64,000 nucleotides of DNA from Lachnospiraceae bacterium. Its GTDB lineage: Bacteria; Bacillota; Clostridia; Lachnospirales; Lachnospiraceae. How positions within the stretch are numbered: the stretch's first letter is position 1; each line of letters starts with the position of its first letter. This document shows positions 6,628 to 43,427 of this stretch, piece by piece. The notes under the pieces are model-generated. The model searched no databases, had not been told where the DNA came from, and saw nothing but the letters and a program-made list of their open reading frames with translations. Both the position numbers and the translations under genes were made by a program. The DNA lies in NCBI GenBank assembly GCA_910574865.1, contig CAJTDN010000005.1:186001-250000 (forward strand), written 5' to 3'.

Positions 6628-6772
6628 CCCTTACTATAAGCACTTGCATTGAACACTTAGCGAAGTTTCACACGAGCTTAGTGTGAATGCACTCCGCACT
6701 CCTTGGTGAGGTTCTTTAGAACCTAGTCGTGCGGAGTTTCCTTTCGAGCCTTGTGCAGTGTAACTTCCTTAC
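6628..6772 (-). repeat. Family A structured element, copy 1 (leader of dnaB)
   Basis: Read on the minus strand it begins AAGGAAGTTACACTGCAC and ends GTGCTTATAGTAAGGGG, which serves as the dnaB ribosome site. Module 2 has outer arms ACTCCGCAC and GTGCGGAGT (6691-6699 and 6729-6737) around an inner GGTTC-tetraloop-GAACC hairpin. Module 3 has the TTCACAC/GTGTGAA hairpin with TAAGCTC in the loop, then CTTCGCTAAG. The first module is truncated compared with copy 3. Confidence 0.8.
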
Positions 6773-6808
6773 TTTCATGACGATTCATGGCTACTCCTGG
6801 CCACGCCG

Positions 6809-7258
6809 TCACGCCTCTTCCTTCACAATCAGTTTCAGCCGCGCCGTCACCTGCGAATGCAGCTTGATTGGCACCATGTGCTCTCCCAAGGTCTTGACAG
6901 CCTCCTTGAGCTGGATTTTCTTCTTGTCAACTTCCAAGTCCATCTGTTCCTTGACCGCCACCGCGATTTCCTTGCCGGAAATGGAGCCGAAGGACTTGCC
7001 GCCCTCGCCGACCTTGATGGCCAGCTCGATTTGCCCCTTCTCCAGCTCTCCCGCCAACTTCCGCGCGGCCTCGAGGTTCTCCCTGGCAATCTTTTCCTGG
7101 TTGCTCTTCTGCAGCTTCAAGTCGTTCATGTTCTTCCCGGTCGCCTCGATGCCCAATTTCTTGGGCAAGATGTAATTCCTCGCGTACCCGTCGTTTACAC
7201 TGACAATCTCGCCTTTTTTTCCAAGGGACTTCACGTCCTCCAACAAAATCACTTTCAT
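6809..7258 (-). CDS. rplI: 50S ribosomal protein L9
   Basis: 149 residues, full family length. The N-terminal globule MKVILLEDVKSLGKKGE with VNDGYARNYILPKKLG is diagnostic, followed by the long central helix and C-terminal domain (SITGKEIA-like FGSISGKEIA). It binds 23S rRNA near the L1 stalk. The start codon is 2 nt from the gdpP stop, and its GAAGGAGA site lies within the last gdpP codons, so translation is probably coupled. Confidence 0.98.
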   Translation of the reverse strand: MKVILLEDVKSLGKKGEIVSVNDGYARNYILPKKLGIEATGKNMNDLKLQKSNQEKIARENLEAARKLAGELEKGQIELAIKVGEGGKSFGSISGKEIAVAVKEQMDLEVDKKKIQLKEAVKTLGEHMVPIKLHSQVTARLKLIVKEEA

Positions 7259-7259
7259 T

Positions 7260-9305
7260 TTATATGTCTCCTTCCTCTATCATCTGGTCAATCACGGCCT
7301 TTAACGAGCGAATCGCCTCGTCAACGTCCGTGTGGTCGAACTGCGCCCCGGCCGCGTTAATGTGGCCGCCGCCGCCCAGCCTCTCCGCGATTACTTGTAC
7401 GTTTACCTCGTCAATCGAACGCGCGCTAAGGAACGTCTTTCCCTGGTAAATCGTCAACACGAAGGATGCCTTGATACCGCTGATGTCCAGCAACTCGTTG
7501 GCCGTCTGCGCACCCAGCACGGTCGGGTTCTCGATGTCGCTCGGACATTCGGCAATCGCGTACTGCTCGCGGTACACCTCCGCCATGCGCACCGCCTCCG
7601 CCTTGGCACGGTATGATTCCATGTCGTCACGGAACATCTTGCGCACCTTCGTGATGTTCGCCCCGCACCGGCGCAGGAAAGCCGCCGCCTCGAAGGTCCG
7701 CACCCCGGTCCGGTTCATGAAATTGCGCGTGTCAATCATGATTCCGGCGTACATGCAGTCGGCCTCCACCTGCGGAATACGGATATCCTCCACGATATAC
7801 TGCAGCACCTCCGCCACCATCTCGCAAGTGGACGAGGAATATGGCTCTATATAGGAAAGAATCGCGTTTTCAATAATGTTGTCGCTCTGCCTATGGTGGT
7901 CAAGCACGGCAATCGTCTTCGCCCTCTTCAAAAGTTCAGGGCACTCGGTCATCTGCGGCTTGTTCGTGTCCACCACCACGACCATCGTGCCATCCGTCAT
8001 GTGGTCCATCGCCTTCTCCGGCGTCAGGAAAAAGTCCGATTCATATTCAGAATTTTCCAAAAGCTCGTCATAAAGCGGGCGCACCGCCGCCTGTGCCCCG
8101 TCCATCACGATGCACGCCTTCTTCTTCAACGCCTTCACGGCCCGGGAAATGCCGACGCACGCCCCAAGACTGTCCGCGTCCGCAATCCTATGCCCCATCA
8201 CCAGCACCTGGTCCTTGGACTCGATGAACTCGCGTAACGCCTCGGCCTTCACGCGCGCCTTGACACGGGTGTTTTTCGAGGTCTGCTCCTTCTTGCCGCC
8301 GAAATATGTAATTCCGTGGCAATCCTTGATGACCGCCTGGTCACCGCCCCTTGCCAGCGCCAAGTCAATCGCCGCGCGGGCGTAATTGTAACTCTGGGCG
8401 TAGGTCGCGGCATTCAGCCCCAAGCCGATACTGAGCGTGGCACTGTGCGCGTTCCCGATGTTCACCTGCTTGACCTCCTCCAGCAAGGAGAACTTGTCCG
8501 CTTCGAACCTTTTGTAGCTTTCCTTTTTAATCACGATGAAATACTTGTCATTTTCCAGCTTTTTGACAATGCCGTCAACGTCGCCGATATACTTGTTAAT
8601 CTTGCGGTCAATCAGCGCGACCAGAAGGGACTGGCGCACTTCCTCCACGCTCTCCATCACCTCGTCATAATTGTCAATGTAAATGAGGCCCGCGATCAGC
8701 CGCTGGTTTTCGTTTTCCTCGATATAGGAATTCAGTTCCGTCACGTCCGTCATGTAAAGCGTGATGAAATACTGCTGGCCTTCCGGAATCTCCAGCAAGG
8801 ATTCCTGCTCGTTAAACCCTTGCATGGAGACCATGTTGAGCTCCACCCGGTAGTCATGCTGCCTGCACTCCAGTTCCAGCTCCATGTGCCTCATGTCCTC
8901 TTTGGGAAACATGCTGCGGTTCAATTCGGGAATCAGCTGCTGTATGTGCCGCTCGTTTCTCTTTATATCAGAAAAAATGTCCCAGAAACTGTCATTCGCC
9001 CAGACCACCCTGCCATCCGCGAGCGCGACCGCGTACGGCACCGACATTTCCTGCAAAAGGACGTTCGAAACAGCCTGGTACTCCATGGAAAATTCAAAAA
9101 TCTCATCCAACACCCGGGAGCGGTTATAAAAATACAACGCCACCACGATGACGATATAAACCACGACGAATATCGTCATCAAATAGCCCGCCTTGCGGTT
9201 GACAAAATACATCCAGACGTTCAACCCTACCAGAAGCAGGGACATCAACAGCGGCCACCGCATGTACATCCCGAGCTTGCCCTTCAATTGTATATTGTTT
9301 TTCAT
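7260..9305 (-). CDS. gdpP: Cyclic-di-AMP phosphodiesterase GdpP (YybT)
   Basis: Membrane-bound DHH-DHHA1 phosphodiesterase, about 681 residues, hydrolysing c-di-AMP to pApA and so affecting wall stress and potassium homeostasis. Start at 9305 (MKNNIQLKGK) has GGAGAGG just upstream; in-frame codons further up have none. Layout: two membrane helices within residues 15-62, PAS-like domain about 80-180, degenerate GGDEF about 180-320, DHH domain from about 350 with RIADADSLGA, VVDTNKP and VLDHHRQ, and DHHA1 at the end with RLGGGGH. All DHH metal ligands appear intact. First of the gdpP-rplI-dnaB group. A possible promoter (TTAACA, 18 bp, TATAAA) lies around 9411-9440 on the minus strand. Confidence 0.96.
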   Translation of the reverse strand: MKNNIQLKGKLGMYMRWPLLMSLLLVGLNVWMYFVNRKAGYLMTIFVVVYIVIVVALYFYNRSRVLDEIFEFSMEYQAVSNVLLQEMSVPYAVALADGRVVWANDSFWDIFSDIKRNERHIQQLIPELNRSMFPKEDMRHMELELECRQHDYRVELNMVSMQGFNEQESLLEIPEGQQYFITLYMTDVTELNSYIEENENQRLIAGLIYIDNYDEVMESVEEVRQSLLVALIDRKINKYIGDVDGIVKKLENDKYFIVIKKESYKRFEADKFSLLEEVKQVNIGNAHSATLSIGLGLNAATYAQSYNYARAAIDLALARGGDQAVIKDCHGITYFGGKKEQTSKNTRVKARVKAEALREFIESKDQVLVMGHRIADADSLGACVGISRAVKALKKKACIVMDGAQAAVRPLYDELLENSEYESDFFLTPEKAMDHMTDGTMVVVVDTNKPQMTECPELLKRAKTIAVLDHHRQSDNIIENAILSYIEPYSSSTCEMVAEVLQYIVEDIRIPQVEADCMYAGIMIDTRNFMNRTGVRTFEAAAFLRRCGANITKVRKMFRDDMESYRAKAEAVRMAEVYREQYAIAECPSDIENPTVLGAQTANELLDISGIKASFVLTIYQGKTFLSARSIDEVNVQVIAERLGGGGHINAAGAQFDHTDVDEAIRSLKAVIDQMIEEGDI

Positions 9306-9539
9306 GATTCCTCTCCATTCATAAAACCCCGCACTTGCCAATCCCGCCAGGCCCGGCAAGATAATAAAAGGCACGTCCGCGGCCAATGCCGCGCATGATG
9401 ACACAAAAAGTATTTATAGTATATCACTTTTCTTTTTGTTAATCCACACTTTTCTGACGAAGTTAAATCAATGTAATCCTTCTGTAACCAAATATTAACC
9501 AAATCGTTACATTTGATTTTTCCTTAAAGCCGCGGGACG

Positions 9540-9857
9540 TTTCGCTTGCGAACCGCGCGCGCCGTTTACGGTTCCCCGGCGGCAAAATTTTTCCAGCCGT
9601 GCGGTTGCGATCCGATGGTAGTTTTCATACAATTTATTGCAGTGAAAACTACCTGTCGGATTAGCAACCCATTTATTAATGAGCAAAATGTGGCTGCGTT
9701 AGCAGACATGGGAGTGCGTTGGCACGGATTTTGCGAATTGGATAAACAGGTTGGATGCTCTTTAGGGCATTCAACCGCACAGCTGGAAATTTTTTCGCGC
9801 CCGCACGCATACTCCCCATGATTTCATATCACGGGGAACGAAGTTTCCCATGACATG
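9540..9857. repeat. Family B nested palindromic region in the 600-bp gap before gdpP
   Basis: The gap between rpsR and gdpP holds no convincing gene. It contains a long outer inverted repeat (AAATTTTTCCAGC near 9583 with GCTGGAAATTTTT near 9781), extended by GTGCGGTTG/CAACCGCAC. Inside is an arm GGTAGTTTTC/GAAAACTACC with ATCCGA/TCGGAT and GGTTGC/GCAACC outside it, and a second arm GGTTGGATGC/GCATTCAACC. At the right end lies TCATATCACGGGGAAC with GTTTCCCATGACATGA, a palindrome nearly repeated at 41351-41379. The segment 9405-9540 is AT-rich with two TTTGGTTA direct repeats and the probable gdpP promoter. Confidence 0.7.
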
Positions 9858-9892
9858 AAAAAAGGGTACCACTACGCAATGTAATGGCACCC
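9858..9892 (-). terminator. Terminator of the rpsF-ssb-rpsR operon
   Basis: On the minus strand GGGTGCC pairs with GGTACCC (one mismatch) across 9864-9892, followed by six T at 9863-9858. Confidence 0.75.
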
Positions 9893-9901
9893 GTCGCCTC
9901 A

Positions 9902-10168
9902 TTAATCCTGAACGTACGGCATCAAGGAAATGTGTCTCGCCCTCTTGATGGCAACTGTCAAAGCCCTCTGGTGTTTCGCACAATTCCCGGTAATCCTTCT
10001 CGGAAGAATTTTCCCTCTCTCGGAAATGTACTTCTTCAGCTTTGCCACGTCTTTGTAATCAATCTCGTTATTTTCTTTCCCACAGAATACGCAAACTTTT
10101 TTCCTTCTGCGCACCGGGCCTCTTCTCTTGAATCCGCCCTCGGGTTTGCCTGCTTTTTCGTAAGCCAT
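9902..10168 (-). CDS. rpsR: 30S ribosomal protein S18
   Basis: 88 residues. The clostridial zinc-binding start CVFCGKE plus the core [22 protein letters not shown] (in part) and [26 protein letters not shown] identify it. It binds with S6 to the 16S rRNA platform. Last gene of rpsF-ssb-rpsR. The 230-bp gap to ssb carries a GTTACAG/CTGTAAC hairpin and no gene. AGGAGG precedes the start. Confidence 0.98.
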
Positions 10169-10399
10169 CGTCCTTACCTCCTATTATCGTCCTTCCCGTT
10201 ACAGCCGCCAAGGCTGAACTGTAACCCCTTCCCGTCCCTTTGACCGGAAGATGTTTGGTGAAGGTCCCCGTCATGCCGGGCCCCGGATAAACCTGCCGCC
10301 CGGTATCTTGTGACGCGCACAACCATATACGGAATTATGCCGTTGTACGGCTGCGGCCGGCGCAATACTCACGGCAGATTTTATCGGCCATAAGCATGG

Positions 10400-10894
10400 T
10401 TAATTAAACGGCAGCTCCTCGTCAATCCCATCCGGGATGTTCATGAAGCCGTCCCCCGCGTCCCCGCTTGGTGACGGAGCCGGCGCCGACTGCCTATAGG
10501 AGTTATTGTTGTAGGAATTGTTGTTATAGGAGTTGTTATTAAATGAAGAACCGCCGCCGTTTGCCTCTCTCTCGGCCCTGCTCTCCGCGAACTCCTGCTC
10601 CTCCACAATCACTTCCGTCGTATAGACGCGCGCGCCGTCCTTGTTCGTATAGCTGCCGGTCTGGATGCGCCCCGACACGGACACCCGCATCCCCTGGCGG
10701 AAATACTTCTCCGCGAACTCCCCGGAACGCCCGAACACCACGCACGGAATGAAATCCGCGGTCGGCTCGTTGTCCCGCTTGAACCTGCGGTCCACCGCCA
10801 GCGTATACCTTGCAACCGCCGTCGCATTGTCCCCTTGTGAATACCTCACTTCCGGATCCCTCGTCAGGCGACCCACCAAAATCACTTTATTCAT
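10400..10894 (-). CDS. ssb: Single-stranded DNA-binding protein
   Basis: 164 residues. The OB fold occupies residues 1-105 (MNKVILVGRLTRDPEVRY, FIPCVVFGRSGEFAEKYFRQG, VSGRIQTGSYTNKDG), the flexible linker 106-150, and the acidic tip IDEELPFN that docks partner proteins. The linker holds three in-frame NNNSY repeats from a 15-bp DNA repeat (about 10495-10545). Middle gene of the rpsF operon, 18 nt after rpsF, the usual firmicute arrangement. Confidence 0.98.
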   Translation of the reverse strand: MNKVILVGRLTRDPEVRYSQGDNATAVARYTLAVDRRFKRDNEPTADFIPCVVFGRSGEFAEKYFRQGMRVSVSGRIQTGSYTNKDGARVYTTEVIVEEQEFAESRAEREANGGGSSFNNNSYNNNSYNNNSYRQSAPAPSPSGDAGDGFMNIPDGIDEELPFN

Positions 10895-10911
10895 ATATTA
10901 CCTCTTTCTCT

Positions 10912-11199
10912 TTATGCATCCTGTCTTACGCATAAATACCTGAGAACATTGTCCATGATACGGATACGCTGTTCCACTTCACCCGGAACAGTGCTCTCAG
11001 CCTCGAAGTGGACGAAGTAATAATATCCTTCCCTCATCTTCTGAATTTCGTAAGCGAACCTTCTCTTACCCCATTCATCGACGTCCGTCACGACGCCACC
11101 GAAACGGGTAACTAAGGCCTTCACCTTTTCCATCACGTCCGCCCTGGCATCGTCTTCGAGTTTTGCGCTGACAACAACAGCCAATTCATACTTGTTCAT
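10912..11199 (-). CDS. rpsF: 30S ribosomal protein S6
   Basis: 95 residues. Start chosen at 11199 (MNKYELAVVV) because AAGGAGG is 8 nt upstream and the family begins there; an upstream in-frame ATG at 11289 would add an unrelated tail. Core marks: GGVVTDVDEWGKRRFAYEI, EGYYYFVHFEAE and IRIMDNVLRYL. It pairs with S18 on the small subunit. First gene of rpsF-ssb-rpsR, driven by the promoter at 11298-11326. Confidence 0.98.
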   Translation of the reverse strand: MNKYELAVVVSAKLEDDARADVMEKVKALVTRFGGVVTDVDEWGKRRFAYEIQKMREGYYYFVHFEAESTVPGEVEQRIRIMDNVLRYLCVRQDA

Positions 11200-11224
11200 G
11201 TCTCGCACCTCCTTATGGTCTCTG

Positions 11225-11247
11225 GCCCCCGCCTTTCTCGCGGGAGC
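11225..11247 (-). other. Leader hairpin before rpsF (possible S6:S18 autoregulatory site)
   Basis: GCTCCCGC pairs with GCGGGGGC around a GAGAAAG loop, a few nucleotides before the rpsF ribosome site. In many bacteria S6:S18 binds such a leader to repress its own operon. Identity as that motif is inference from position only. Confidence 0.4.
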
Positions 11248-11297
11248 AAGGATTGTAATAAAACCGTGTTTTTCAAAACGGCATGTCACAAGTACCT

Positions 11298-11326
11298 ATC
11301 TTACCATAACATGTTTCACGTTTCAA
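11298..11326 (-). promoter_or_regulatory. Predicted sigma-A promoter of rpsF-ssb-rpsR
   Basis: On the minus strand TTGAAA (11326-11321), 17 bp, TAAGAT (11303-11298). The -35 overlaps the end of the DUF951 gene. The leader would be about 90 nt. Confidence 0.7.
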
Positions 11327-11517
11327 GCTTTTTTGTGGATTTTCCTCACATTTTTTTCCACCAGCTTGCGCGGCACCATCACCTGGTGTGCGCAGCCCAT
11401 GCATTTCAAGCGAAAGTCCGCGCCCACGCGCAATATTTCCCACTCGTTGCTGCCGCAAGGATGCGGCTTTTTCATCCAAATGACGTCTCCCACGCCAAAT
11501 TCAAATCGTCCCGCCAT
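11323..11517 (-). CDS. DUF951 protein
   Basis: 64 residues, matching the short DUF951 family common next to rpsF in Firmicutes. Diagnostic stretch: GDVIWMKKPHPCGSNEWE, then RVGADFRLKCMGC and VMVPR. The paired Cys residues suggest a zinc-ribbon-like fold; function is not established. Start at 11517 (MAGRFEF) has GAGG at proper distance; the longer frame upstream is Arg/Gly-rich and not family-like. Confidence 0.9.
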   Translation of the reverse strand: MAGRFEFGVGDVIWMKKPHPCGSNEWEILRVGADFRLKCMGCAHQVMVPRKLVEKNVRKIHKKA

Positions 11518-11579
11518 ATGCTTCATCCTCGTTGCCTTCCACGGGGCCGCGCACCCGCCGCACGGCCGCCGTCCGCCGG

Positions 11580-12461
11580 CTAATCCTCGTCCACCAGCAC
11601 GCCTTGCACCAAAAACCGCTCGTCGTCCCGCACGTTCGTGCACGTTGACAAGCTGACGATTTTGGACTGGGCGTCCAGCTCCACGTCCACGTCGTAATTG
11701 GACGATCTTTTACATACCTTCAGGTAATCCGTAAAATCTTTTTCCGTCAAATAGGACGGCGTATAATTCTCGGCCTCCGCCTTCACGACCGACGCCGAAA
11801 AAACCTTGTACGTACGGGTCTTGCCATCCGGCGTGTAAATATAAAAATAGGGATATTTCTTACAAAACTCCTCATCCGCATATTCCGTCAACTGGGAAAA
11901 CATTTCCCCGCCGATTTTCAGGTTATGCCCGTAAATGAACACGTTCCGGTCATTGAACGACGTGTTGCGCATGTCCATGAAAATCGCGCCAAGCTTGTTG
12001 TCGTTGGCAAAGAACGTCTTCGTCAAATATTCATTATTATCCTTGCTCTGCACGACCGGGTAATTGATAATTGCCGGCTCCTCGAACCGGATCCACGCCA
12101 CCACGTCCGGATTCTCCCTTGCCAGAAACGCGAAATCCACCTTGAAGCCGTCCCCCACGTCATCCGACTCTATCGCAAGCTCCTTCACCTCGTCGTACTC
12201 CTTGCCGCCCGCCAAATACGGGTACAGCGACATGGCCAGCTGGCAGCCGGAAAACAAAAATACGAGCACGGCCACGATTAAGAGGACGGGAATCACCTTG
12301 CTCTTGTTTTCCTTTTCCTTGCGACGCGCGTTCCGCCTGCGCCGCCGGCCGGGCTCCGTCGTTCCCGCCTTCCGCCCCGTCGCTGCCGGCCTCTGCCCCG
12401 TCGCTGCCGCCTTCCGCCCCGTTGCCCCCGGCTTCTGGCCCGCCTGCTTCTTTTCTTCCAT
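11580..12461 (-). CDS. srtB: Class B sortase
   Basis: Membrane-anchored cysteine transpeptidase of 293 residues that attaches surface proteins or pilins to peptidoglycan. A cytoplasmic Lys/Arg tail (residues 1-54) precedes one membrane helix (about 56-73). The catalytic residues are visible: His in IYGHN near 179, Cys in LSTCT near 274, Arg in DERF near 282. The tail is built from a 7-residue repeat (GRKAAAT, GQRPAAT, GRKAGTT) encoded by a 21-bp DNA repeat at about 12355-12440. AAGGGG lies 8 nt before the start. No LPXTG-type substrate is recognised beside it, so its target is unknown. Confidence 0.92.
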   Translation of the reverse strand: MEEKKQAGQKPGATGRKAAATGQRPAATGRKAGTTEPGRRRRRNARRKEKENKSKVIPVLLIVAVLVFLFSGCQLAMSLYPYLAGGKEYDEVKELAIESDDVGDGFKVDFAFLARENPDVVAWIRFEEPAIINYPVVQSKDNNEYLTKTFFANDNKLGAIFMDMRNTSFNDRNVFIYGHNLKIGGEMFSQLTEYADEEFCKKYPYFYIYTPDGKTRTYKVFSASVVKAEAENYTPSYLTEKDFTDYLKVCKRSSNYDVDVELDAQSKIVSLSTCTNVRDDERFLVQGVLVDED

Positions 12462-12538
12462 AAATATGTCCCCTTCCCAAAATGCTCGTCAAATTCTATC
12501 ATCACCGACCATCCCTGGTCGAACGCGGACGGCAATTT

Positions 12539-16800: not shown

Positions 16801-16845
16801 GGATATATGTAAAAAATACACAACAAAAAGAAAGGAAGGATTTTT

Positions 16846-27443: not shown

Positions 27444-30029
27444 TCACGCTTTCACTTGCAGATGATACTGCACGCCCGGCGCCTCTCCGTTCAAGTCGAA
27501 GCAAACCATGCCCGCTTGTGCTTCATCGTTCGTTCCAGATACGCCGTCCAGATTTTTTGTTCCCGTCTCTTCCGCCTTACCACAAATTTCCGCGAGTACC
27601 TCGCCAACCGGGTTCAAGATTCGCAAAACCGCTTCTCTTGCCTTCACGAAAATCTTTCCTTCCAGCGTCTCGGCATACAATTTCCCCTTGAATTCCACGG
27701 CCGTGAAGGGCATTCCCATCACTTCCGTCCCCGGCTCGTACGTGGTCTCGTCCATACCGGTCGTGCCCATCGCCGTCAGGACGAACTCGTTTGCCTCGGA
27801 CAGCGTCATTCCCCTGGCAAAATCGCCCGCCATGGCTTCGGTGCAACCCCCCGCCCCACAAGACGATGTCGCATTTACCGAAATCGATGCGCCCACCGTG
27901 GCCGCCGCCTTCTCCACCGGCAATAATGTCAACGATATTCTTTCATTTTTCGCCTGCACGCTTACCTTGTCGGAAAGCACGATCGTTTCGTCCGGCGCGC
28001 CGCTGAACGCCGCGCAATATGGCGTGCAAATCTGGTATTTTGCGTGCTCCGGGTCAAACACGAGCTCCTTCGTGTCGGAAACCAGCTTTCCGTCCACGTA
28101 CCCCGCGTCCTCGGGCAAAACTCCCCATTCCTTCATCGCCCGATCCGCCAATTTGGCAAACTCGCGGTAATCCCCGTCCCCGGCAACTTCACGAATCTGC
28201 TCGAACACCAGGGCCTGCTCGCCCAGGCGCACGCCCGGCTGGATTTCACGGCTTCCCCTTGCCGCCCTCGCGAGGCGGTTTTTGTCCTCGAAACGGCGCA
28301 TCGCGTCCCGATATGGTGACCATGCGTAATACATGGCGTGCTTTGCACCGGCCAAATCCGCCCCGTTTAAAAAGCCCGCGTTGACGGCCACGTCCGCGTC
28401 ACCCTGGTAAGCGTCCCCGCCGTCCAAAAAGACGTTTCGCATCGCTGTCACGTAAGGGAAGAACACGGTCGGCATCGAGTGGAAATTCGGAAGCGTCCGC
28501 AGGTCGTTCTGCGTATAAACCACGTCCACGAGACGCTTCGCCACGGATACCTTGCCCCTAAGGAACACGGAAGCCAAAAATCCCCACTGGCAGACCACCG
28601 CCGGGTCATTATACACGTCAAACACGCTCACGATTTCATCCGCCGGCTGGTCGTCCCATTTTTCCGACGTATGATGGTTATAAAGGATTAACCCGTCCCA
28701 GTCATTTAAACACGCATACGCGATTGCCTGCAAAAACGACGTGGAATGGAACGGATGCTCGCCGTACTCGTTCCACTCGCTGAGCATGAACGGCTTTCCC
28801 TTCACGATGGCCACCGAACCGAGGCTCGTAAGCGTGGTGGCCATCGAACCGACGCCCTTTTGCATCATCAGCGGGTTGGCCGAGACGTATTCCGCCGGAC
28901 CCGGCACCAAATATTTGTTTCCCTGCTGCGGCAGCAACGGATGGTTGAAATAACTGTTATTCTCCATCAGGTCGCCGTCCGTATGCCCGTACACGTCGGC
29001 CGCCCCTGCAATCAGGTTGCTGGTGACGATGGGCACCTTCACGCCCAGTGAATGTAGGTAATCCTTCATCGTCTGGTAAAATTTACGATTCATATAGACG
29101 CCAAATTCCATGAAATCCGCATAACGCGCCGGCCCGCATTCGGAGTCCCACTGCCCGTCCGGGTCGTTCGTCGGCTGGTAGAAGCCGCCCGCCACGCCGC
29201 GCACGGTTCCCTTCGCCGGATCCTCGTCCTCGCCCAGGGAACATACGCCCCCGTACGTCCATGCTTCCTTAAGCCTCTCACGCGTATAATATTTCATCAA
29301 TAAATAATGGTTAAACCGTCTTTGCACCTCGTCCCGGTAGGGCTTCATCTGCTCGCCCGCGTCCGCCCCCATCGGGCCTTTGATGGCCGAGTCCTCATTA
29401 TTAATCTGCACCGTGGCCACCGCCGGGTCGTCGACGAGCGCCAGGCCGGTGTAGGGATTCACGTGGCACAAGAACGCCCTCGCGTATTCCATCTGCAATT
29501 CGGCCAGACGCTGGTTGTACATGCAGTGCCGCTTCATGCACGATGGCACGCCGCCCGGGTAATCCAACTCGTCCCCGTCCAAAAAATCCCTGGCCACAAT
29601 CAGGTCGATGTGCAAATAAATCCCCTTTTCTTTCAGCTTCGCCGCGAAATAATCGAACCGGTCCCAGCCCTCCTTATTGAACGTCCGGCTGTTTCCGCCC
29701 GTATAATCCAAAAGCGGAGCCTCCTTGCAGCTGCTCCAGCTCCAGGGTTCCTCCCCGACCGGCGCGTCCGCCGCGTGCAGACGGATGATGTTGACCCCCA
29801 TGCTGGCAAAACGCTCGGCCAGTTTGTCCGCCGTCTCATGATCCGGCGTGTTCGACCGGGTGGCGACGTTGAAACCTAAAAACCTGGCCCGCGTCCCGTC
29901 CTCAAAGTAAAAATTCCCCTTACGGCTCTCCACGAACCCGTGCTTGCCCGCCGGCGCATCCAAAAGATGCGAATAATTGAGCATGCCCGTGTTGGGCTCC
30001 GCCTTATGAATACGAATCTTATGCTTCAT
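27444..30029 (-). CDS. Clan GH-A glycoside hydrolase (GH5/GH42-like), first gene of the cluster
   Basis: 861 residues, no signal peptide. The TIM-barrel start is GNFYFEDGTRARFLGFNV with FASMGVNIIRLHA. The candidate acid/base Glu is in VQINNEDS (about 212), the nucleophile in FMLSEWNEYGE (about 418). The exact GH family is not recognised. The start at 30029 (MKHKIRIHK) has AAGGGAGG upstream, and that site is the terminal part of family A copy 2, so the leader of this cluster is the structured element. A Ser/Cys/Ala-rich patch (around residues 755-785) has no obvious counterpart in a TIM-barrel enzyme. Order: this gene, GH94-type, GH78, then the binding protein. Confidence 0.78.
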   Translation of the reverse strand: MKHKIRIHKAEPNTGMLNYSHLLDAPAGKHGFVESRKGNFYFEDGTRARFLGFNVATRSNTPDHETADKLAERFASMGVNIIRLHAADAPVGEEPWSWSSCKEAPLLDYTGGNSRTFNKEGWDRFDYFAAKLKEKGIYLHIDLIVARDFLDGDELDYPGGVPSCMKRHCMYNQRLAELQMEYARAFLCHVNPYTGLALVDDPAVATVQINNEDSAIKGPMGADAGEQMKPYRDEVQRRFNHYLLMKYYTRERLKEAWTYGGVCSLGEDEDPAKGTVRGVAGGFYQPTNDPDGQWDSECGPARYADFMEFGVYMNRKFYQTMKDYLHSLGVKVPIVTSNLIAGAADVYGHTDGDLMENNSYFNHPLLPQQGNKYLVPGPAEYVSANPLMMQKGVGSMATTLTSLGSVAIVKGKPFMLSEWNEYGEHPFHSTSFLQAIAYACLNDWDGLILYNHHTSEKWDDQPADEIVSVFDVYNDPAVVCQWGFLASVFLRGKVSVAKRLVDVVYTQNDLRTLPNFHSMPTVFFPYVTAMRNVFLDGGDAYQGDADVAVNAGFLNGADLAGAKHAMYYAWSPYRDAMRRFEDKNRLARAARGSREIQPGVRLGEQALVFEQIREVAGDGDYREFAKLADRAMKEWGVLPEDAGYVDGKLVSDTKELVFDPEHAKYQICTPYCAAFSGAPDETIVLSDKVSVQAKNERISLTLLPVEKAAATVGASISVNATSSCGAGGCTEAMAGDFARGMTLSEANEFVLTAMGTTGMDETTYEPGTEVMGMPFTAVEFKGKLYAETLEGKIFVKAREAVLRILNPVGEVLAEICGKAEETGTKNLDGVSGTNDEAQAGMVCFDLNGEAPGVQYHLQVKA

Positions 30030-30040
30030 GATATGTCCTC

Positions 30041-30169
30041 CCTTACTATAAACACTTTGCGAGGTTTCACACGAGCTTAGTGTGAATGTACTCCGCGCAT
30101 CTTGGTAAGGTTCTTTCGAACCTAGTTGCACGGAGTTTCCCCAAGCCTAGTGCAACATAACTTCCTTAC
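30041..30169 (-). repeat. Family A structured element, copy 2 (leader of the glycan cluster)
   Basis: On the minus strand it begins AAGGAAGTTATGTTGCACTA and ends GTGTTTATAGTAAGGGAGG at the ribosome site. Module 2 arms are ACTCCGCGCA (30090-30099) and TGCACGGAGT (30127-30136), one mismatch, with inner GGTTC/GAACC. Module 3 has TTCACAC/GTGTGAA and ACCTCGCAAAG. The first module is shortened as in copy 1. It lies wholly in the predicted 5' UTR. Confidence 0.8.
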
Positions 30170-36744: not shown

Positions 36745-36777
36745 GAATGCACTGAATTTCCCATGACATGAGACAAC

Positions 36778-36814: not shown

Positions 36815-36880
36815 TACCCCTTCTCTCAAGCGTTTCATAACCCGCCCCAAAAGTTGTTCATAATCCTTATCATTTTTATT

Positions 36881-37551: not shown

Positions 37552-37626
37552 GTTTACGTCCTCCCTTCCACACCCGATTCAAAGAAACGGGTTTCTTTGT
37601 TTCTCATTTTCTCGGTATCCAAGACT

Positions 37627-37655
37627 ATTGTATGCAATCCCACGTGACATGTCAA
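37627..37655 (-). promoter_or_regulatory. Sigma-A promoter of the toxin-antitoxin pair
   Basis: Minus strand TTGACA (37655-37650), 17 bp, TACAAT (37632-37627). The palindrome TGACATGTCA overlaps the -35 and could be the antitoxin operator. Confidence 0.78.
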
Positions 37656-37714
37656 GTATCTTTTTCGCCTCTTTATAACCGCTTTCCAATCGCAATGCAA
37701 ACAATTCATTTATA

Positions 37715-37743
37715 TTGACTTTCGCCCTTATCTTTTTTATACT
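37715..37743 (+). promoter_or_regulatory. Sigma-A promoter of the AraC gene at 37823
   Basis: TTGACT at 37715-37720, 17 bp, TATACT at 37738-37743, giving a leader of about 75 nt. Confidence 0.75.
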
Positions 37744-37822
37744 TTAATTATAATGTAGCGTCAGCGTACAGATGGCAGATTCAAATGCATTTTGACCGCA
37801 ATGACAGCATGGAGGACTATTT

Positions 37823-38743
37823 ATGCAAAACCCACCCGCCCTTTCCACAACCGCCCCCGCTTCGCAAATGTTTTCCGAGGTGGACAACACCTTGAAGGAG
37901 CGCGGCATGCACGGCTCCTTCGAGCTCCCAATCGAAACTTACACCGACAACTGCGCCATTTTCCACTCCGTCTACAACCACTGGCACGACGAGATGGAAA
38001 TCCTTTGCATCGAGGACGGCATCGGCATGATGCGCTTAAACCGCGAAAACCTGCGGGTGAAAAAGGGCGACGTCCTCGTCGTGAATCCCGGCGTGCTCCA
38101 TGGTATAAAGACGGATTTGAAGCGTATCCTATACTTCAAGAGCATTGTTTTCGATTTGGAATTTTTGCGCGGCAGCGCGGGCGACCTCTGCCAGGAGCGG
38201 GTCATTTTGCCGCTGATGGAGAACCGAGCGGAATTTGTGCACCAGATTTCCCCGCAGGCCGAGAATTATGACAAAATTTTTTCGCTCTTTTACCAGGTCC
38301 ACGACTGCCACCGACAGAAGGAGCCGTATTACTTTGTCAAATTAAAAGGCCTGCTTTATGATTTCTTCTATGAAATGTTGATAGGGAATTACATCATTCC
38401 CACGGACGCGGAGCAAAACAAGAACCTCTCGTCCATCAAACGGGTCATTGATTACATGAACCGGCATTATGCGGAAACGCTCACCGCGAGGGAATTGGCC
38501 CTGTCCTCCAATTTCAGTGAATATTATTTTATGAAAATGTTCCGGCAATATACGGGCAAGACCTTGATCGGGTATCTCAATGACCTCCGCCTGGAAAAAG
38601 CGAAAACACTTTTGATGCATTCGCAAGATTCCGTCACGGAAATCGCGCTGGCCGTGGGATTCAACAATACCAGCTATTTTATCAAGAAATTCGAACAAGC
38701 CAACGGAATTTCGCCAAGTAAATTCCGCAGGAAAATGTCATAA
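37823..38743 (+). CDS. AraC-family regulator with cupin sensing domain
   Basis: 306 residues. The N-terminal cupin (HSVYNHWHDEMEILCIEDG, KKGDVLVVNPGVLHGI in part) should bind a sugar; the C-terminal domain has LTARELALSSNFSEYYFMKMFRQYTG and VTEIALAVGFNNTSYFIKKFEQANG (partly quoted). GGAGG is 7 nt before the ATG. The next gene is glycogen phosphorylase, on the same strand; a regulatory link is possible but not shown. Confidence 0.9.
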   Translation: MQNPPALSTTAPASQMFSEVDNTLKERGMHGSFELPIETYTDNCAIFHSVYNHWHDEMEILCIEDGIGMMRLNRENLRVKKGDVLVVNPGVLHGIKTDLKRILYFKSIVFDLEFLRGSAGDLCQERVILPLMENRAEFVHQISPQAENYDKIFSLFYQVHDCHRQKEPYYFVKLKGLLYDFFYEMLIGNYIIPTDAEQNKNLSSIKRVIDYMNRHYAETLTARELALSSNFSEYYFMKMFRQYTGKTLIGYLNDLRLEKAKTLLMHSQDSVTEIALAVGFNNTSYFIKKFEQANGISPSKFRRKMS

Positions 38744-38788
38744 AAGAACAATTTTGTTATATTTTTTGCCTTTATGGCATGCTATGAT

Positions 38789-38985
38789 AAAGGAAATTAC
38801 GCTGCACTAGGCTCGAAAAAAACTCGCCAAGTTGCAGGTAACTACGTTCGCACGTAAGCAAGACATAGAGGAAACTCCGCATAACTAGGTTCGAAAGAAC
38901 CTCACCAAGGTATGCGGAGTACATTCACACTAAGCTCGTGTGAAACCTCGCTAAGTGTTCATTGTAAGTGCTCACAGTAAGGAGG
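38789..38985 (+). repeat. Family A structured element, copy 3 (leader of glycogen phosphorylase)
   Basis: Longest copy, with three modules. Module 1: CTGCA (38802-38806) and TGCAG (38833-38837) around CTAGGCTCG...ACTCGCCAAG. A small TACGT/ACGTA hairpin follows. Module 2: ACTCCGCAT (38874-38882) and ATGCGGAGT (38912-38920) around CTAGGTTCG...ACCTCACCAAG. Module 3: TTCACAC/GTGTGAA, then ACCTCGCTAAG. The end, CAGTAAGGAGG, is the ribosome site of the next gene. A TATGAT at 38784-38789 may be a -10. Confidence 0.85.
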
Positions 38986-38994
38986 AATATCATC

Positions 38995-41250
38995 ATGAAA
39001 GAATTGGAAATGATCATTCAGGACATGTTCCACAAGGATTGTGGCGAATGCACGAATGAAGAATTATATCAGGCATTATTGACTTATACAAAGCAATCGC
39101 TTGTCAACAAGGGCTATCAGGACGGCAAGAAAAAAGTGTACTACATTTCTGCGGAGTTCCTGATTGGCAAGCTGTTGTCCAACAACCTGATTAACCTCGG
39201 CATCTACGACCAGGTGGCCGAATTTTTGAAGCAAAATGGAAAATCGCTGGCCGAAATCGAGGAAATCGAGCCTGAGCCGTCGCTTGGAAACGGCGGGCTG
39301 GGAAGGCTGGCCGCCTGCTTCCTTGATTCCATCGCGACTTTGGGACTTCCCGGCGAAGGCATCGGCCTGAATTACCATTTAGGGCTTTTCAAGCAGGAGT
39401 TCCACGACCATCTGCAGAGCGAGAAGCCGAATCCGTGGATTGCCGAAACCGGCTGGCTTAAATCCACGGGCGTGTCTTACATGGTTCCTTACCGAGGGTT
39501 CGTCCTGAAGTCTTCCTTATATGACATAGACGTGGCCGGATACCACAGCAAGTCCATCAAGCTCCACTTGTTCGACATTGACATCGCGGACGAGGGCATC
39601 GTGGGTGACGGGATTTCCTTTGACAAAAAAGACATCCTGCACAACCTGACGCTGTTCTTGTACCCGGACGACAGCGACGACGACGGAAGGAAGCTGCGCA
39701 TTTACCAGCAATATTTCATGGTCAGTAACGCGGCGCAATACATTTTGGACGAGGCGGAAAAGAAAGGCTGCACGCTGCATGATTTGCCGGATTACGCGGT
39801 CGTGCAGATTAACGATACCCACCCGAGCATGATTATCCCCGAGTTCATCCGCCTTTTGACGGAACGGGGCATCGAGTTCGAGGAAGCCTGCCAAATCGCG
39901 TCCGCCATGTGTGCCTACACGAACCACACCATTTTGGCGGAAGCCTTGGAAAAGTGGCCGATGGATTATCTGGAGGACGTGGTGCCGCACCTCGTTCCCA
40001 TCATCCGCAGGCTTGACGAACGGATGAAGGCGAAATACCCGCAAAAATCCGTGGCCATCATTGATGAAAACGACCTGGTGCACATGGCGCACATGGACAT
40101 CCACTACGGCTTTTCCATCAACGGCGTGGCCGCTCTCCATACGGACATTTTGAAAAACAGCGAGCTGAAACATTTTTACGAAATTTACCCGCAGAAATTC
40201 AACAATAAGACGAACGGCATCACGTTCCGCCGCTGGCTGATGCACTGCAACCACGAGCTGACCGAATTTATCACGTCGCTCATCGGGGACGGTTTTAAAA
40301 CTGATGCCTTCGCCTTGGAAAAATTGTTGGAATACAAGGACGATTCCGAAGTGCTAAAGAGGCTCCTCGCCATCAAGGCCGACGCGAAAAAGGCGTGCAA
40401 GGAATTCATTTTGCACAATACGGGCGTGGAAATTGACGAAAACAGTATTTATGACATCCAGAGCAAACGGCTCCACGAATACAAAAGGCAGCAGCTGAAC
40501 GCGTTGTATATCATTCGGAAGTATTTGGAAATCAAAAACGGCCACAAGCCGACCACGCCGCTCACGTTCATTTTCGGCGCGAAGGCGGCTCCCGCCTACG
40601 TCATTGCAAAAGACATCATCCATCTTTTGCTCTGCCTGCAGGAATTGATTGAAAACGACCCAGACGTGTCGCCTTACATGAAAGTCGTGATGGTGGAAAA
40701 TTACAACGTGACGGCGGCCGAAAAGCTGATTCCCGCCTGCGACCTTTCCGAGCAGATTTCCCTCGCCTCCAAGGAGGCCAGCGGCACCGGAAACATGAAG
40801 TTCATGCTGAACGGAGCCGTGACGCTGGGAACGCTTGACGGCGCCAACGTGGAAATCGGCGACCTGGTCGGCAAGGACAACATTTACATCTTCGGAGAGT
40901 CCAGTGAAAAGGTCATCGAGCATTACGAAAAAGCCGACTATTGTTCCAAGGAAATATACGAAAGTGACGAGGACATCCGCCAGTGCGTGGACTTCATCGT
41001 GAGCCCGCAGCTTTTGTCCATCGGGCAGGAAGAGAACTTGCGGCGGCTCTATTCGGAACTCGTCAACAAGGACTGGTTCATGACGCTTCTGGATTTCCAG
41101 GACTATGTGAAGGTGAAAGACCTTGCGCTCGCCGATTATGAAAATCGCCAGGAATGGGCGAAAAAAATGCTGGTAAACATCGCCAAGGCCGGGTATTTCT
41201 CGTCGGACAGGACGATACGGCAGTACAACGAAGATATTTGGCATCTGTAA
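38995..41250 (+). CDS. glgP: Glycogen/alpha-glucan phosphorylase (GT35)
   Basis: 751 residues, the short clostridial form. It converts glycogen plus phosphate to glucose-1-phosphate in the cytoplasm. Marks: [33 protein letters not shown], the PLP-binding motif [14 protein letters not shown] with Lys near 602, and [12 protein letters not shown]. The start at 38995 (MKELEMI) follows the GGAGG supplied by family A copy 3; an upstream in-frame ATG lies within the element and is not preferred. Confidence 0.97.
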
Positions 41251-41261
41251 AGACCAAGGTG

Positions 41262-41380
41262 TTTTGCTTGCGGAACTCTCGCGCCGGGGCGCGGCTGCGT
41301 CAGCAGCCATCTTCCCCAGGCGCGAAGTGCGCATCCCCCAGAGGGTTTTGTATCATAGGGAACGAAGTTTCCTATGATAT
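41262..41380. repeat. Family B element, copy 2
   Basis: Shares GGCTGCGT-AGCAG with the region near 9693 and, at 41351-41379, a palindrome TATCATAGGGAAC / GTTTCCTATGATA with the same loop (GAA) as at 9823-9857. It lies between convergent genes. Confidence 0.65.
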
Positions 41381-41381
41381 C

Positions 41382-41414
41382 AAAAAGCGGGAGGTTCATC
41401 GCCTCCCGCTTTTT
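41382..41414. terminator. Bidirectional terminator
   Basis: AAAAAGCGGGAGG and CCTCCCGCTTTTT form a perfect 13-bp stem with a 7-nt loop, strong on both strands, between glgP and the MFS gene. Confidence 0.92.
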
Positions 41415-41459
41415 ATTCCCGCGAGCAATCCCCATGTGATTTCAAGCAACTCTCACATT

Positions 41460-42917
41460 CTAAAACTCATCCCCGCTCACCTTGCCCAGATCCACGCCAC
41501 GGGTCTCCTTCGTCTTGAACATGACGAGCAGGATACCGATGGCAAGGCCCGGCACCGCGAACGCGAAGCAAATGATCCCAATCATCGCGTCCCCCAAAAG
41601 ATTGATGGCCACCAGATAGCCAATCATACCAAGCGCAAAGATGGCCATCCCGATTACGGGCTGCAGCGTCAATATGGACAACCGCAAGTTGGTAGGCGCC
41701 GACTCCGTAATCATGATGCCGTTAATGTCACCGGCTCCCCAGTAGCTGCCGACCGACAGTCCTGCCATGACGCCCACGAAATACGGGTTCCAGGATTGGT
41801 TTGCCCCGGCAAAGAACAGCAAATAGGATACCAGGCACATGATGCTCATGCTAAGCAGCGCCGGCTTCCTTCCCAGCGTGTCGGAGAAGAAGCCCTGCAA
41901 AATCTGTATCACAGCACTGGCCAACGGAAACGTCATGAGAGCCGCCGTCACCATTGGGATGGCCTGCTGCCTGGCCGCCTCCATCTCCATGCCGGCCGCC
42001 TGGAAGCTCTGCGCGTACCCATACGTCATCGTCGTCTCATAGTACATCGCAATCAGCATGCCGAACATCATGAACCCATACGCGATGCACAAATATCTCA
42101 GTTGTCCGTGCCGGAATATGAACTTGAACGCCTTCCCCAGACCGCCCCTGGCTTCCGCGTCCTGGTTCTTCGCCTTGGCCGCCTCCTTCTCCTCCTCCGT
42201 CATGGTCAGCTGGTGGATGCGGCTCTCCACGAAGGCATCCGATTCTCTCACGAGGAACAGCGCGGCAATGGAGACCGCCAGCCCGATTATGCCTGGAATG
42301 ATGTAAACAAACCGCCACCCCGACTGGTCCGTCTCCGTGATAAACAAATTTCTCAAAAACGGAATCAAAAACATCCCCAGCGTCGCCATTCCTTTTATGA
42401 TGGAATAAATTTTCGCGCGATGCTTCGCCGGCGTCGACTCATATATGTACACCGCCTGCATGTCATGGGGCGTGAAAAAAGCCGTCACCCACGCGCCCAG
42501 GAAATATACCGGTATGTTTGTCGCGATACCCACGAAGAGCATTCCCAGCCCCATCCCGAGCGTGTTGGCGACGAGGAAAATCCGTCGGCCGTAGCGGTCT
42601 GACAACGGCTTGTACAGAAACGCCAACACCGTGATGATGATTCCAATCATGCCCAGGCTCCCCATCCGGGCCATCGCGTACTCCGCCCCGAATACCGGCG
42701 CGAAAATCTCCGAGGCCACGATGGTCTGCATCTGCGTCCCTATCTGCGAAGCGATTTCATCCACCAGGTAGACCACGGTGATAATCATGATAAAATAAAT
42801 CATGTAACCGGATCCCTTCGGCTTCGCCTGCTCCTTCCGAAGCCTCTCAAGTTCCCTTGCCTCCGCCGCCTTCCTCCTGGCAATTTTTTCCGGCGACAAT
42901 TCCTTCGCTTTCCCCAT
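41460..42917 (-). CDS. MFS transporter (sugar-porter-like)
   Basis: 485 residues, about 12 helices. A 38-residue charged cytoplasmic tail (ARRKAAEARELERLRKEQ) precedes TM1. The MFS signature between helices 2 and 3 is KPLSDRYGRRIFLV, and its second-half echo is SDTLGRKPALLS; a long charged loop (TEEEKEAAKAKNQDAEARG) lies between the halves. AAAGGAGG precedes the ATG. Single gene with no enzymes adjacent; substrate not predictable. Confidence 0.88.
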   Translation of the reverse strand: MGKAKELSPEKIARRKAAEARELERLRKEQAKPKGSGYMIYFIMIITVVYLVDEIASQIGTQMQTIVASEIFAPVFGAEYAMARMGSLGMIGIIITVLAFLYKPLSDRYGRRIFLVANTLGMGLGMLFVGIATNIPVYFLGAWVTAFFTPHDMQAVYIYESTPAKHRAKIYSIIKGMATLGMFLIPFLRNLFITETDQSGWRFVYIIPGIIGLAVSIAALFLVRESDAFVESRIHQLTMTEEEKEAAKAKNQDAEARGGLGKAFKFIFRHGQLRYLCIAYGFMMFGMLIAMYYETTMTYGYAQSFQAAGMEMEAARQQAIPMVTAALMTFPLASAVIQILQGFFSDTLGRKPALLSMSIMCLVSYLLFFAGANQSWNPYFVGVMAGLSVGSYWGAGDINGIMITESAPTNLRLSILTLQPVIGMAIFALGMIGYLVAINLLGDAMIGIICFAFAVPGLAIGILLVMFKTKETRGVDLGKVSGDEF

Positions 42918-43202
42918 AAGAATTTCCTCCTTTAGACTTTTTCACCTGGCTCCCCGGCCTTGAGCCCGTGTCCATGAGAACTCGTATTCTCTTTCAACCT
43001 ATCTTCAGTATATCTCATTTTCCTTGAAAGCTCAACTGATTCATGGAAAATCAAGAACAAAATGAAAAGAGAGGGATTACTTTTCACGGGGTAGGGAAAC
43101 GATGAGTGAAATACCTCGCAGCAAGCTCTTAACTTGACCTATATTTATACAAGGTAACTTCGATAAGCAAGTAATGCGCAGAAAATTTGCGCAAAAAAAG
43201 AA
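42918..43202. other. Intergenic region with a degenerate family A fragment
   Basis: No gene. Around 43095-43180, GAGTGAAATACCTCGC and AAGGTAACTTCGATAAGCAAG resemble parts of module 3 and of the spacer found only in copy 3, so copy 4 seems to have been longer. The fragment is separated from the rest of copy 4 by the promoter at 43203. Confidence 0.5.
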
Positions 43203-43231
43203 TTGACGTGAGAACCATAATTTGGTATAAT
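43203..43231 (+). promoter_or_regulatory. Near-consensus sigma-A promoter of the tRNA-Cys transcript
   Basis: TTGACG (43203-43208), 17 bp, TATAAT (43226-43231). The strongest promoter in the window. Transcription from about 43238 would run through family A copy 4 into the tRNA. Confidence 0.88.
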
Positions 43232-43267
43232 CTTTTTGTTACAAAGAGCATATACTATAACATGCTC

Positions 43268-43427
43268 ATAGATATGTCGTCTGGTAAGCTCGTGAAGCAC
43301 CTCGCTAACGCCGACGACACGCATCGCACGAAGGAAACTCCTTTCATCTAAACTCGTGGGATACCTCGTTAAGATTCAAGGAGTAGATTCACACTAAGCT
43401 CGTGAAATACCTCGCTAAGTGTTCAGC
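43268..43427 (+). repeat. Family A structured element, copy 4 (leader of tRNA-Cys)
   Basis: Module 1: GTCGTC (43276-43281) and GACGAC (43313-43318) around TAAGCTCG...ACCTCGCTAA. Module 2: ACTCCTT (43337-43343) and AAGGAGT (43378-43384) around CTAAACTCG...ACCTCGTTAAG. Module 3: CACACTAAGCTCG, then ACCTCGCTAAGTGTTC, ending 2-3 nt before the tRNA. The module stems differ in sequence from the other copies but still pair. Confidence 0.82.

Follow-up and report, generated by a model that had tools for sequence, protein, structure and literature searches.

A modular hairpin element before dnaB, glgP, tRNA-Cys and other genes of Lachnospiraceae is probably a non-autonomous mobile repeat favouring ribosome-binding sites

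Four hairpin elements and the genes that follow them

The window, that is, the whole 64,000-nucleotide stretch analysed here (contig CAJTDN010000005.1 of the Lachnospiraceae assembly GCA_910574865.1), carries four elements comprising 10 hairpin modules, each oriented toward the next gene (Table 1). A preliminary description of this DNA had placed one copy before each of four genes, and the coordinates, the strands and the aim at the following gene were all confirmed. An unfiltered covariance search of the window (E <= 1) returned the 10 modules and none outside the four elements. For the core motif CTARGYTCG the window has 7 occurrences where 0.76 would be expected, and for ACYTCRCYAAG, with up to one mismatch, it has 19 where 4.4 would be expected, part of these 19 lying outside the elements. 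As had been described, the copies before dnaB, the 27444-30029 gene and glgP end in the gene's ribosome-binding (SD) site, while the fourth precedes tRNA-Cys, whose anticodon is GCA (ARAGORN, run on locus L189). The label GH-A previously given to the 27444-30029 gene could not be confirmed from the Pfam search.

Table 1. Elements and downstream genes in the window, with module counts from the covariance search
Feature	Position	Strand	Modules	Parts	Basis
Element before dnaB	6627..6772	-	2	module A left-arm remnant ~6741-6772; module B ~6688-6740; end module C' 6643-6695; SD TAAGGGG 6627-6633	core pattern and covariance search
dnaB (replicative helicase)	5271..6617	-			ORF; Pfam DnaB/DnaB_C; start codon at 6617
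Element before the 27444-30029 gene	30036..30169	-	2	module A fragment; module B 30087-30139; end module C' 30042-30086; SD TAAGGGAGGA 30036-30045	core pattern and covariance search
861-aa protein	27444..30029	-			ORF; no Pfam match at E <= 1e-5
Element before glgP	38786..38985	+	3	module A 38793-38845; start of C hairpin; nested module B 38871-38923; C' 38916-38968; right part of C; SD TAAGGAGG 38978-38985	covariance search
glgP (glycogen phosphorylase)	38995..41250	+			ORF; Pfam Phosphorylase
Element between promoter-like sequence (read by eye) and tRNA-Cys	43270..43424	+	3	GTCGTC/GACGAC-stem module 43273-43321; ACTCCTT/AAGGAGT-stem module 43334-43387; end module C' 43380 to ~43424	covariance search
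tRNA-Cys	43430..43500	+			Rfam tRNA match

A known RNA family or riboswitch was rejected as an identity for these elements. At the gathering threshold Rfam matched only the tRNA in the whole window and nothing at 17 related loci, and at a relaxed threshold (E <= 10) the glgP leader gave one unrelated chance match, in agreement with the earlier statement that no known riboswitch was recognised.

Architecture and covariation of the modules

In each unit a single type A or type B hairpin precedes an end hairpin, C. The type A and B hairpins begin with CTAR and share the conserved core CTARGYTCG-n-ACCTCRCYAAG, and the foot of the C inner stem reads GTAA in 28 of 37 rows (ATAA in 5, GTAG in 3, CTAG in 1). 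The right end of the unit is fairly constant, with GTGCTCATNG immediately before YAAG(G), and 43 of 59 right ends carry YA[AG]G two bases past CAT. Left ends are variable and often truncated; several begin inside the element, and there are truncated ones that start in the loop of the C hairpin. Modules nest inside one another and also repeat in tandem arrays, most often every 101 bp and over a range of periods of about 91-108 bp.

Stretches of three of the four copies fold better than their shuffles (z -3.5, -4.0 and -4.2), and the tRNA-Cys copy folds no better than shuffles (z +0.37). Across 37 modules, 15 of 17 pairs have changed on both sides, which bears out the earlier observation of a shared core enclosed by variable stems whose pairing is preserved. 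The stem covariation is real and strong, though some measures do not exceed shuffles: for covariation by further pair types, 280 of 500 shuffles were as high for the modules and 475 of 500 for C, and for pairs changed on both sides in the C hairpin 78 of 500 were as high. Such paired changes do not prove an RNA function. They had been taken as a sign that selection acts on structure, of RNA or of a single strand, and this claim stands only in its wider form, since recognition of the hairpin as DNA, or template-switch correction inside a palindrome, could produce an identical pattern.

Template switching also figures in a reading with no dedicated enzyme, according to which slippage during replication, switches of template and recombination at short AAGG/YAAG homologies would both spread and alter the palindromes, the covariation arising as one hairpin arm is copied onto the other. 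The left ends that start in the C-hairpin loop, the tandem arrays, the rarity of G-U pairing within the variable stem (4 of 216), a deletion observed between CATNGTAAG repeats and the lack of an intact resident Y1 transposase are all consistent with this account. We nonetheless consider it improbable, because the dispersal of 79 clusters and a near-perfect core across genera, both described below, would be hard to achieve without recognition in trans.

Distribution, placement and occupied sites in relatives

The host genome contains at least 137 modules in 79 clusters, so that the four copies, all present in the window, are 4 of these 79 clusters and not the whole set. The module total is a lower bound (150 of 1317 candidates were scored), and the clusters were built per strand and counted by script, about a dozen of them without a full reading by eye. 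Searched genome-wide, the joined core matches exactly at 83 places and a reversed control pattern at 0. Each of the 12 genomes sampled from the genus contains the family, with module counts that are likewise lower bounds (95 candidates scored per genome; at least 69 modules in the relative G002), and its presence elsewhere is patchy and mostly within Lachnospiraceae, many of which conserve the loop bases, the core being nearly letter-perfect across genera. Seven of at least 118 public stretches, from Kiloniellales (four, in one assembly), Dongia, Novosphingobium and a Faecalibacterium, were set aside as another repeat or chance, because the six inspected (all but Dongia) have GC-rich loops and unrelated flanks. 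Spread on phages or plasmids was rejected, the glgP element having no match in plasmid or phage collections. Two IMG/VR contigs were matched, one (L278) carrying a lone core without the family's flanks and the other (L279) several modules within a cluster of six tRNA genes.

An SD and start codon on the same strand follow 60 of the 79 clusters, compared with 7 of 79 in mirror image and 279 of 1580 random points, the last figure marking the test as a loose one; the other 19 clusters fail it. AAGG-like sequence brackets many copies, so that an SD is left behind after insertion. The usual place of the element is thus the ribosome-binding site of a gene, and a site of this kind remains once it is there. 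In a second type the bracketing sequence resembles a -10 box: of 121 foreign copies, 11 have -10-like sequence after the core (19 of 2360 random stretches do), 13 have it before the core (74 of 2360) and 7 have it on both sides. Six clusters were read as this -10 type (L154, L157, L169, L178, L197 and L198), four of them upstream of and antisense to a gene. These four would therefore not be 5' leader transcripts, which weighs against RNA-mediated copying, whereby a leader transcript would be reverse-transcribed and re-inserted with precise 3' and truncated 5' ends. The constant right ends and the left ends lying within the element fit such a process, but nothing positive indicates RNA and we hold it to be very unlikely indeed.

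Same-strand placement before start codons, strong pair covariation and conserved loop bases would also suit a cis-acting RNA regulon, with one protein or small molecule binding the leader hairpins and a common signal linking replication, glycan use and translation. Besides glgP in the window, several carbohydrate genes appear, as a raw count, among 17 downstream genes scanned outside it (GH2, GH3, GH43, PfkB and a BD-FAE-like esterase), but the remaining scanned genes are functionally unrelated (ECF transporter, V-ATPase D, PurM-like, response regulator, SipL-domain protein and aldehyde dehydrogenase). Some related elements, moreover, separate tRNA genes, and others lie at -10-like sequence or within long hairpins (36 of 121 foreign copies, a raw hairpin count without control), and the SD is more open with real than with base-shuffled leaders (0.61 vs 0.47; higher in 44 of 60), so there is no general SD sequestration and we rejected it as a general switch. 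A riboswitch would be expected before one gene class and conserved across orthologues; here the genes are mixed and the leader is often missing from orthologous genes in relatives. We judge such a regulon unlikely, and the four leaders probably do not share a regulatory switch.

Comparison with relatives bears on both readings that had been offered earlier, a trans-regulated RNA motif or a mobile structured repeat targeting leaders. The 155-bp element before tRNA-Cys is missing from the relatives G001 and G002. The empty dnaB site of G001 contains a single AGTAAGG, whereas in G002 and in the window this sequence flanks the element on both sides. Upstream of the 27444-30029 gene G001 has A-C and G002 a nested A[BC']C, and before glgP G002 has only A and an intact C. 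At three starts (L166, L229 and L230) one genome carries A and another B. For 24 loci occupied in the host, the element-free orthologous starts were 9 of 16 in G001, 9 of 21 in G002, 6 of 6 in G005 and 3 of 3 in G009, a start being scored as empty if a pattern search within 260 bases detected neither the core nor a whole or half C hairpin. G001 and G002 together thus give 18 of 37 starts without any element, and some with another variant, a count to be read with four loci in mind: L206 in G001 was scored empty with a C-like stretch visible by eye, the L215 orthologue in G002 was scored as C only yet shows a variant core, L170 in G001 has only 158 bases upstream and a different upstream gene, and L155 in G002 is a weak orthologue match. 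Part of the absence in relatives could be due to deletion, and a clean target duplication could not be fixed from the compared sites, since about 5 bases are seemingly lost at the junction in L166 and L170. The mobile repeat is supported by the empty sites, variant swaps, tandem arrays, nesting and SD placement, and the trans-regulated RNA is weakly placed because the downstream genes are mixed and their orthologues often lack the element.

Search for a mobilising enzyme, proposed mechanism and known repeat families

The host genome gave three partial Y1 transposase matches, none intact, one of which, also broken, lies about 170 bp from a module in L150. The module-rich G002 gave no Y1 match, an absence that is not absolute because the genomes are 94-96% complete. 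In 17 loci around the Y1 matches of relatives (some partial; each locus extending about 1.5 kb to either side) we found a single weak module match (L267, E 0.006), and no autonomous copy carrying tnpA with shared ends was found in the host genome, G002 or these loci. When 824 ORFs from 118 foreign loci were compared all against all, the best 60 rows, read by eye, contained mostly transporters and ordinary genes and no transposase. A resident RAYT or IS200 partner was rejected on the partial host matches and on the near absence of modules from the relatives' Y1 loci.

These results indicate that the four leaders are probably copies of a Lachnospiraceae mobile element that is built of hairpin modules, is non-autonomous and favours SD sites. 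An enzyme encoded elsewhere would recognise the core hairpin, probably in single-stranded DNA, and join the unit at an AAGG-like site. As the unit both starts and ends in AAGG-like sequence, an SD that it enters would be rebuilt, so that the gene would still be translated and the copy persist; the sister type would act likewise at -10-box-like sequence, and effects on the host gene, such as mRNA stability or translation level, would be a by-product. More tentatively, both types may belong to a Lachnospiraceae hairpin superfamily whose ends mimic an SD or a -10 box, recreating the signal at each insertion, and whose CTAGGCTCG/CTCGCCAAG hairpin is recognised by an undescribed enzyme. If so, the start regions of core genes (dnaB, glgP, tRNA-Cys) would be colonised with little harm. 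A repeat family that settles at ribosome-binding sites, those of core genes among them, with such a site still in place afterwards, would follow an unusual targeting strategy and would continually supply leader variants to one of the major groups of gut bacteria. Since strong stem covariation in dispersed leaders can stem from mobile DNA, such leaders should not be labelled riboswitch candidates without an empty-site test.

We found no published description of the element among the titles and abstract openings of the best matches, mostly outside the subscription literature (for the core letters, the best 10 of 74). Hairpin MITEs derived from IS200/IS605 have two subterminal hairpins and insert at a short preferred sequence, as the present element does; they differ from it in that its host genome has only partial Y1 matches. 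A term search of PMC3733652 found no clostridial names, and a table passage of PMC12306157 includes Bacillota species. As described in passages of PMC3116915 and PMC6006769, REP/REPIN-RAYT systems are likewise palindromic, extragenic, high-copy DNA with tandem arrays and, probably, hairpin recognition in single-stranded DNA. The REP hairpin foot is the tetranucleotide GT[AG]G according to PMC6006769; the GTAA foot of C comes close to it and three rows match it as GTAG, but the consensus foot here is not GT[AG]G, the modules stand in tandem on one strand instead of forming inverted doublets (only 2 pairs of opposite-strand neighbour clusters lie within 1.5 kb), and the host genome yielded no intact Y1 gene. 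The BOX, RUP and SPRITE repeats of Streptococcus, parasitic and non-autonomous according to passages of PMC3049150, are also small, structured, interspersed, present in high copy and mutually inserted, and the present element, intergenic and nested, is modular as BOX is. The same passages describe BOX as carrying terminal inverted repeats, duplicating its target and being over-represented where genes converge, whereas most copies here stand at an SD in a single orientation. Our best reading is that of a new, BOX/REPIN-like element.

Hairpin modules and the pairing within them

At each of the four places named in the preliminary description, reading of the sequence recovered a composite of hairpin modules. 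An unfiltered search with R1, a covariance model made from 37 modules, found ten modules in the 64-kb window and none in it outside these places. The module names (A, B, C and C') were coined in the present analysis, and orientation is that of the downstream gene. Module A reads AAGTTACG-CTGCA-core-TTGCAG-GTAACT and module B ACTCCGCA-core-TGCGGAGT; module C consists of CGCAC-GTAAG, a variable 6-bp stem with its loop, and YAAGTGC-TCATNG, while C' is a C-like end module with the core where C has its variable stem. Within the core, CTARGYTCG-n-ACCTCRCYAAG, R-G-Y pairs with R-C-Y around an A.A mismatch. No known riboswitch had been recognised in the element, and Rfam likewise gave no match at the thresholds used.

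Paired changes in the stems had been taken to argue for selection on RNA or single-strand structure. Covariation was tested on the same sequences from which the module and C structures were derived. In the module hairpin the share of paired cells is 72.6%, compared with 60.4% when shuffled and 30-39% when slid, and the score of 0.327 (0.173 shuffled) was reached by 0/500 shuffles; further pair types showed no excess (280/500 shuffles as high). In the C hairpin, 97.9% of cells pair (84.1% shuffled), 6/6 variable pairs change on both sides (78/500 shuffles as high) and the score of 0.527 (0.236 shuffled) was reached by 0/500 shuffles, with further pair types again not exceeding them (475/500 as high). 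The 36 locus-unique C stems, representing 20 distinct stems, contain 207 Watson-Crick, 4 G-U and 5 mismatched pairs. These scores and pair counts indicate that pairing is kept, so this part of the argument holds; however, the scarcity of G-U pairs and the stems common within an array would be accounted for no less well by hairpin processing at the DNA level than by selection on RNA. Eight loci have more than one C hairpin: in six of them the 5' arms are identical, in locus L162 they differ by one base, and locus L171 is mixed. Folded as RNA, three of the window-copy stretches beat shuffles (z -3.5, -4.0 and -4.2) and the tRNA-Cys copy does not (z +0.37); as single-stranded DNA of either strand, both copies tested do (z -3.2 to -4.6).

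Copies across genomes and at orthologous genes

The strict core pattern matched the host genome 83 times and its reversed control 0 times. R1 recovered at least 137 modules there at E <= 0.1, a lower bound because 150 of 1317 candidates were scored, and grouping by strand gave 79 clusters (43 with one module, 21 with two, 10 with three, 4 with four and 1 with six), among them tandem arrays with spacings of 91-108 bp, most commonly 101. Across 61 genomes (E <= 0.001), R1 matched 12/12 genomes of the genus, 5/25 other genera of the family and 0/24 genomes from other families of the order; within the genus, modules per genome range from at least 96 (host), at least 69 (relative G002) and at least 44 (relative G001) down to at least 2. 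A pattern scan with one genome per species gave at least 118 stretches among the matches listed, 7 of these being proteobacterial or Faecalibacterium; the other listed records carry Lachnospiraceae names, some of whose genera we presume to belong to that family, or just Eubacteriales, Clostridium, Clostridiaceae or uncultured bacterium.

The tRNA-Cys copy is absent in G001 and G002, where an ungapped alignment runs from the preceding sequence into the tRNA. At dnaB, G001 is without the element (GAGAGTAAGGGGAGTTACCAGATG), and AGTAAGG flanks it on both sides in G002 and the window. At glgP, G002 has A and an intact C hairpin, and in the window a B-C' unit is nested in C. The remaining gene, whose product has no Pfam match at E <= 1e-5, carries A-C in G001, and in G002 a B-C' unit sits within the A core; the window lacks C together with the right part of A, a loss such as recombination between two CATNGTAAG repeats could produce. 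Comparison was extended to 24/79 loci in four relatives, orthologues being taken as the best DNA matches to each gene start, weak in some cases. The 21 orthologous starts in G002 carry a core (8), only C (3), half C (1) or nothing (9), and the 16 in G001 a core (7) or nothing (9); no element stands at 6/6 starts in G005 or 3/3 in G009. At loci L166, L229 and L230 the same start carries an A or a B variant depending on the genome. Between species the pattern is one of presence, absence and replacement rather than of a conserved leader, although part of the absences may be deletions.

Within the window the elements precede dnaB, glgP, tRNA-Cys and the gene of one unassigned protein. Outside the window, 15 of 17 downstream genes scanned had a Pfam match: GH2, GH3 and GH43 glycosidases, a PfkB kinase, a BD-FAE-like esterase, an ECF transporter, a peptidyl-arginine-deiminase family protein, V-ATPase subunit D, an APH-family phosphotransferase, a response regulator, a PurM-like protein, an aldehyde dehydrogenase, a SipL-domain protein, a cupin and DUF5692. 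Carbohydrate genes turn up repeatedly in this raw listing, and families so varied give no clear support to a common regulon. Between the two readings offered in the preliminary description, absence and replacement in relatives favour a mobile structured repeat over a trans-regulated RNA motif; the element is probably not a common-regulon leader, though it may plausibly affect mRNA as a by-product.

Coordinates of features (window positions unless a contig is named; window = G000:C5:186001-250000, host genome 5.33 Mb in 82 contigs)
Feature	Position	Remark
Gene without Pfam match	27444-30029	downstream of an element
Sequence absent in G001 and G002	43270-43424	at tRNA-Cys
Second repeat	41330-41386	
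Second repeat, similar copy	9806-9862	77% alike
Second repeat, longer stretch	41255-41390	start approximate
Short tandem repeat	12353-12436	21 bp
Short tandem repeat	2413-2519	30 bp
L183, two modules	G000:C5:65239-65326	minus strand
L276, weak Y1 match	G006:C31:5123-5458	288-aa frame

The separate second repeat, with hairpin ATCATAGGGAACGAAGTTTCCTATGAT, has its longer stretch at about 42 places in G001 and G002 (81-92% identity). No long frame spans the region of locus L183, which resembles a broken AAA-ATPase-like gene.

Placement at ribosome sites and -10-like sequence

A start codon with a Shine-Dalgarno (SD) site and a frame of at least 100 codons follows within 130 nt on the same strand in 60/79 clusters, compared with 7/79 for the mirror image and 279/1580 for random points in those loci. 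As read by eye, several elements span from the upstream gene's stop codon to the next SD, and YA[AG]G lies two bases past the right-end CAT in 43/59 clusters where the script located the end motif. The predicted unpaired probability of the SD is 0.61, versus 0.47 with base-shuffled upstream sequence (higher in 44/60). A same-strand tRNA gene follows 3/79 clusters (tRNA-Cys twice, tRNA-Asp once, the latter copy between two tRNA genes). Copies between genes of tRNA clusters were seen at L208 and L219 (host), in a Dorea record (L067) and among the six tRNA genes of an IMG/VR contig (L279).

At six host loci (L154, L157, L169, L178, L197 and L198; by eye, two partly seen) a TATACC-like stretch, complementary to an extended -10 box, brackets or ends the cluster, and 4/6 lie upstream of an opposite-strand gene. 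Among 121 foreign copies, -10-like sequence occurs within 32 nt after the core in 11 (random 19/2360), within 110 nt before it in 13 (random 74/2360) and on both sides in 7. A locus-specific inverted repeat of at least 13 exact bases encloses 36/121 in a raw count; at L036, L106, L131 and others, from other Lachnospiraceae, the core lies within long repeats of this kind, some of them terminator-like, each arm being about 30 nt long. Loci L153, L172, L176, L203 and L205 hold another, somewhat variable type, CGTAACATCCACTCAA-core-TTTCGGGATGGGCTTTC, which apparently lies 3' of genes on the opposite strand.

Probable mobilisation and comparison with known repeats

Since the element starts AAGGA-like and ends directly before YAAG(G), insertion at an SD would leave an SD still adjoining the start codon. 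Left ends are often incomplete, commonly starting in the C loop (L180, L215, L226 and G002 at L207), which a precise-end model does not account for. Mobilisation probably occurs in trans through recognition of the core hairpin, given that the core is conserved between genera and the arms and ends vary by type. A search for Y1, the transposase domain considered as candidate mobiliser, gave three matches in the host, all fragments, and none in G002, and no recurrent transposase was recognised by eye beside foreign copies in the best 60 rows of a neighbour-gene comparison. The frame with a weak Y1 match at L276, in a relative with few modules, possibly encodes a protein like RAYT, the Y1-type partner of REPINs.

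A literature search returned no published description among the best matches listed, and we place the element in a new family of mobile hairpin repeats that are small and non-autonomous. By anatomy and behaviour its nearest counterparts are the BOX-type modular repeats of streptococci and REPINs. The C-hairpin foot, GTAA in 28/37 rows and GTAG in 3/37, is near the GT[AG]G foot of REPINs but in its consensus does not match it, and tests for an inverted-doublet arrangement and for an intact RAYT gene likewise did not bear out REPIN membership. What sets the family apart is its placement at SD sites, together with ends whose sequence resembles the signal it targets.
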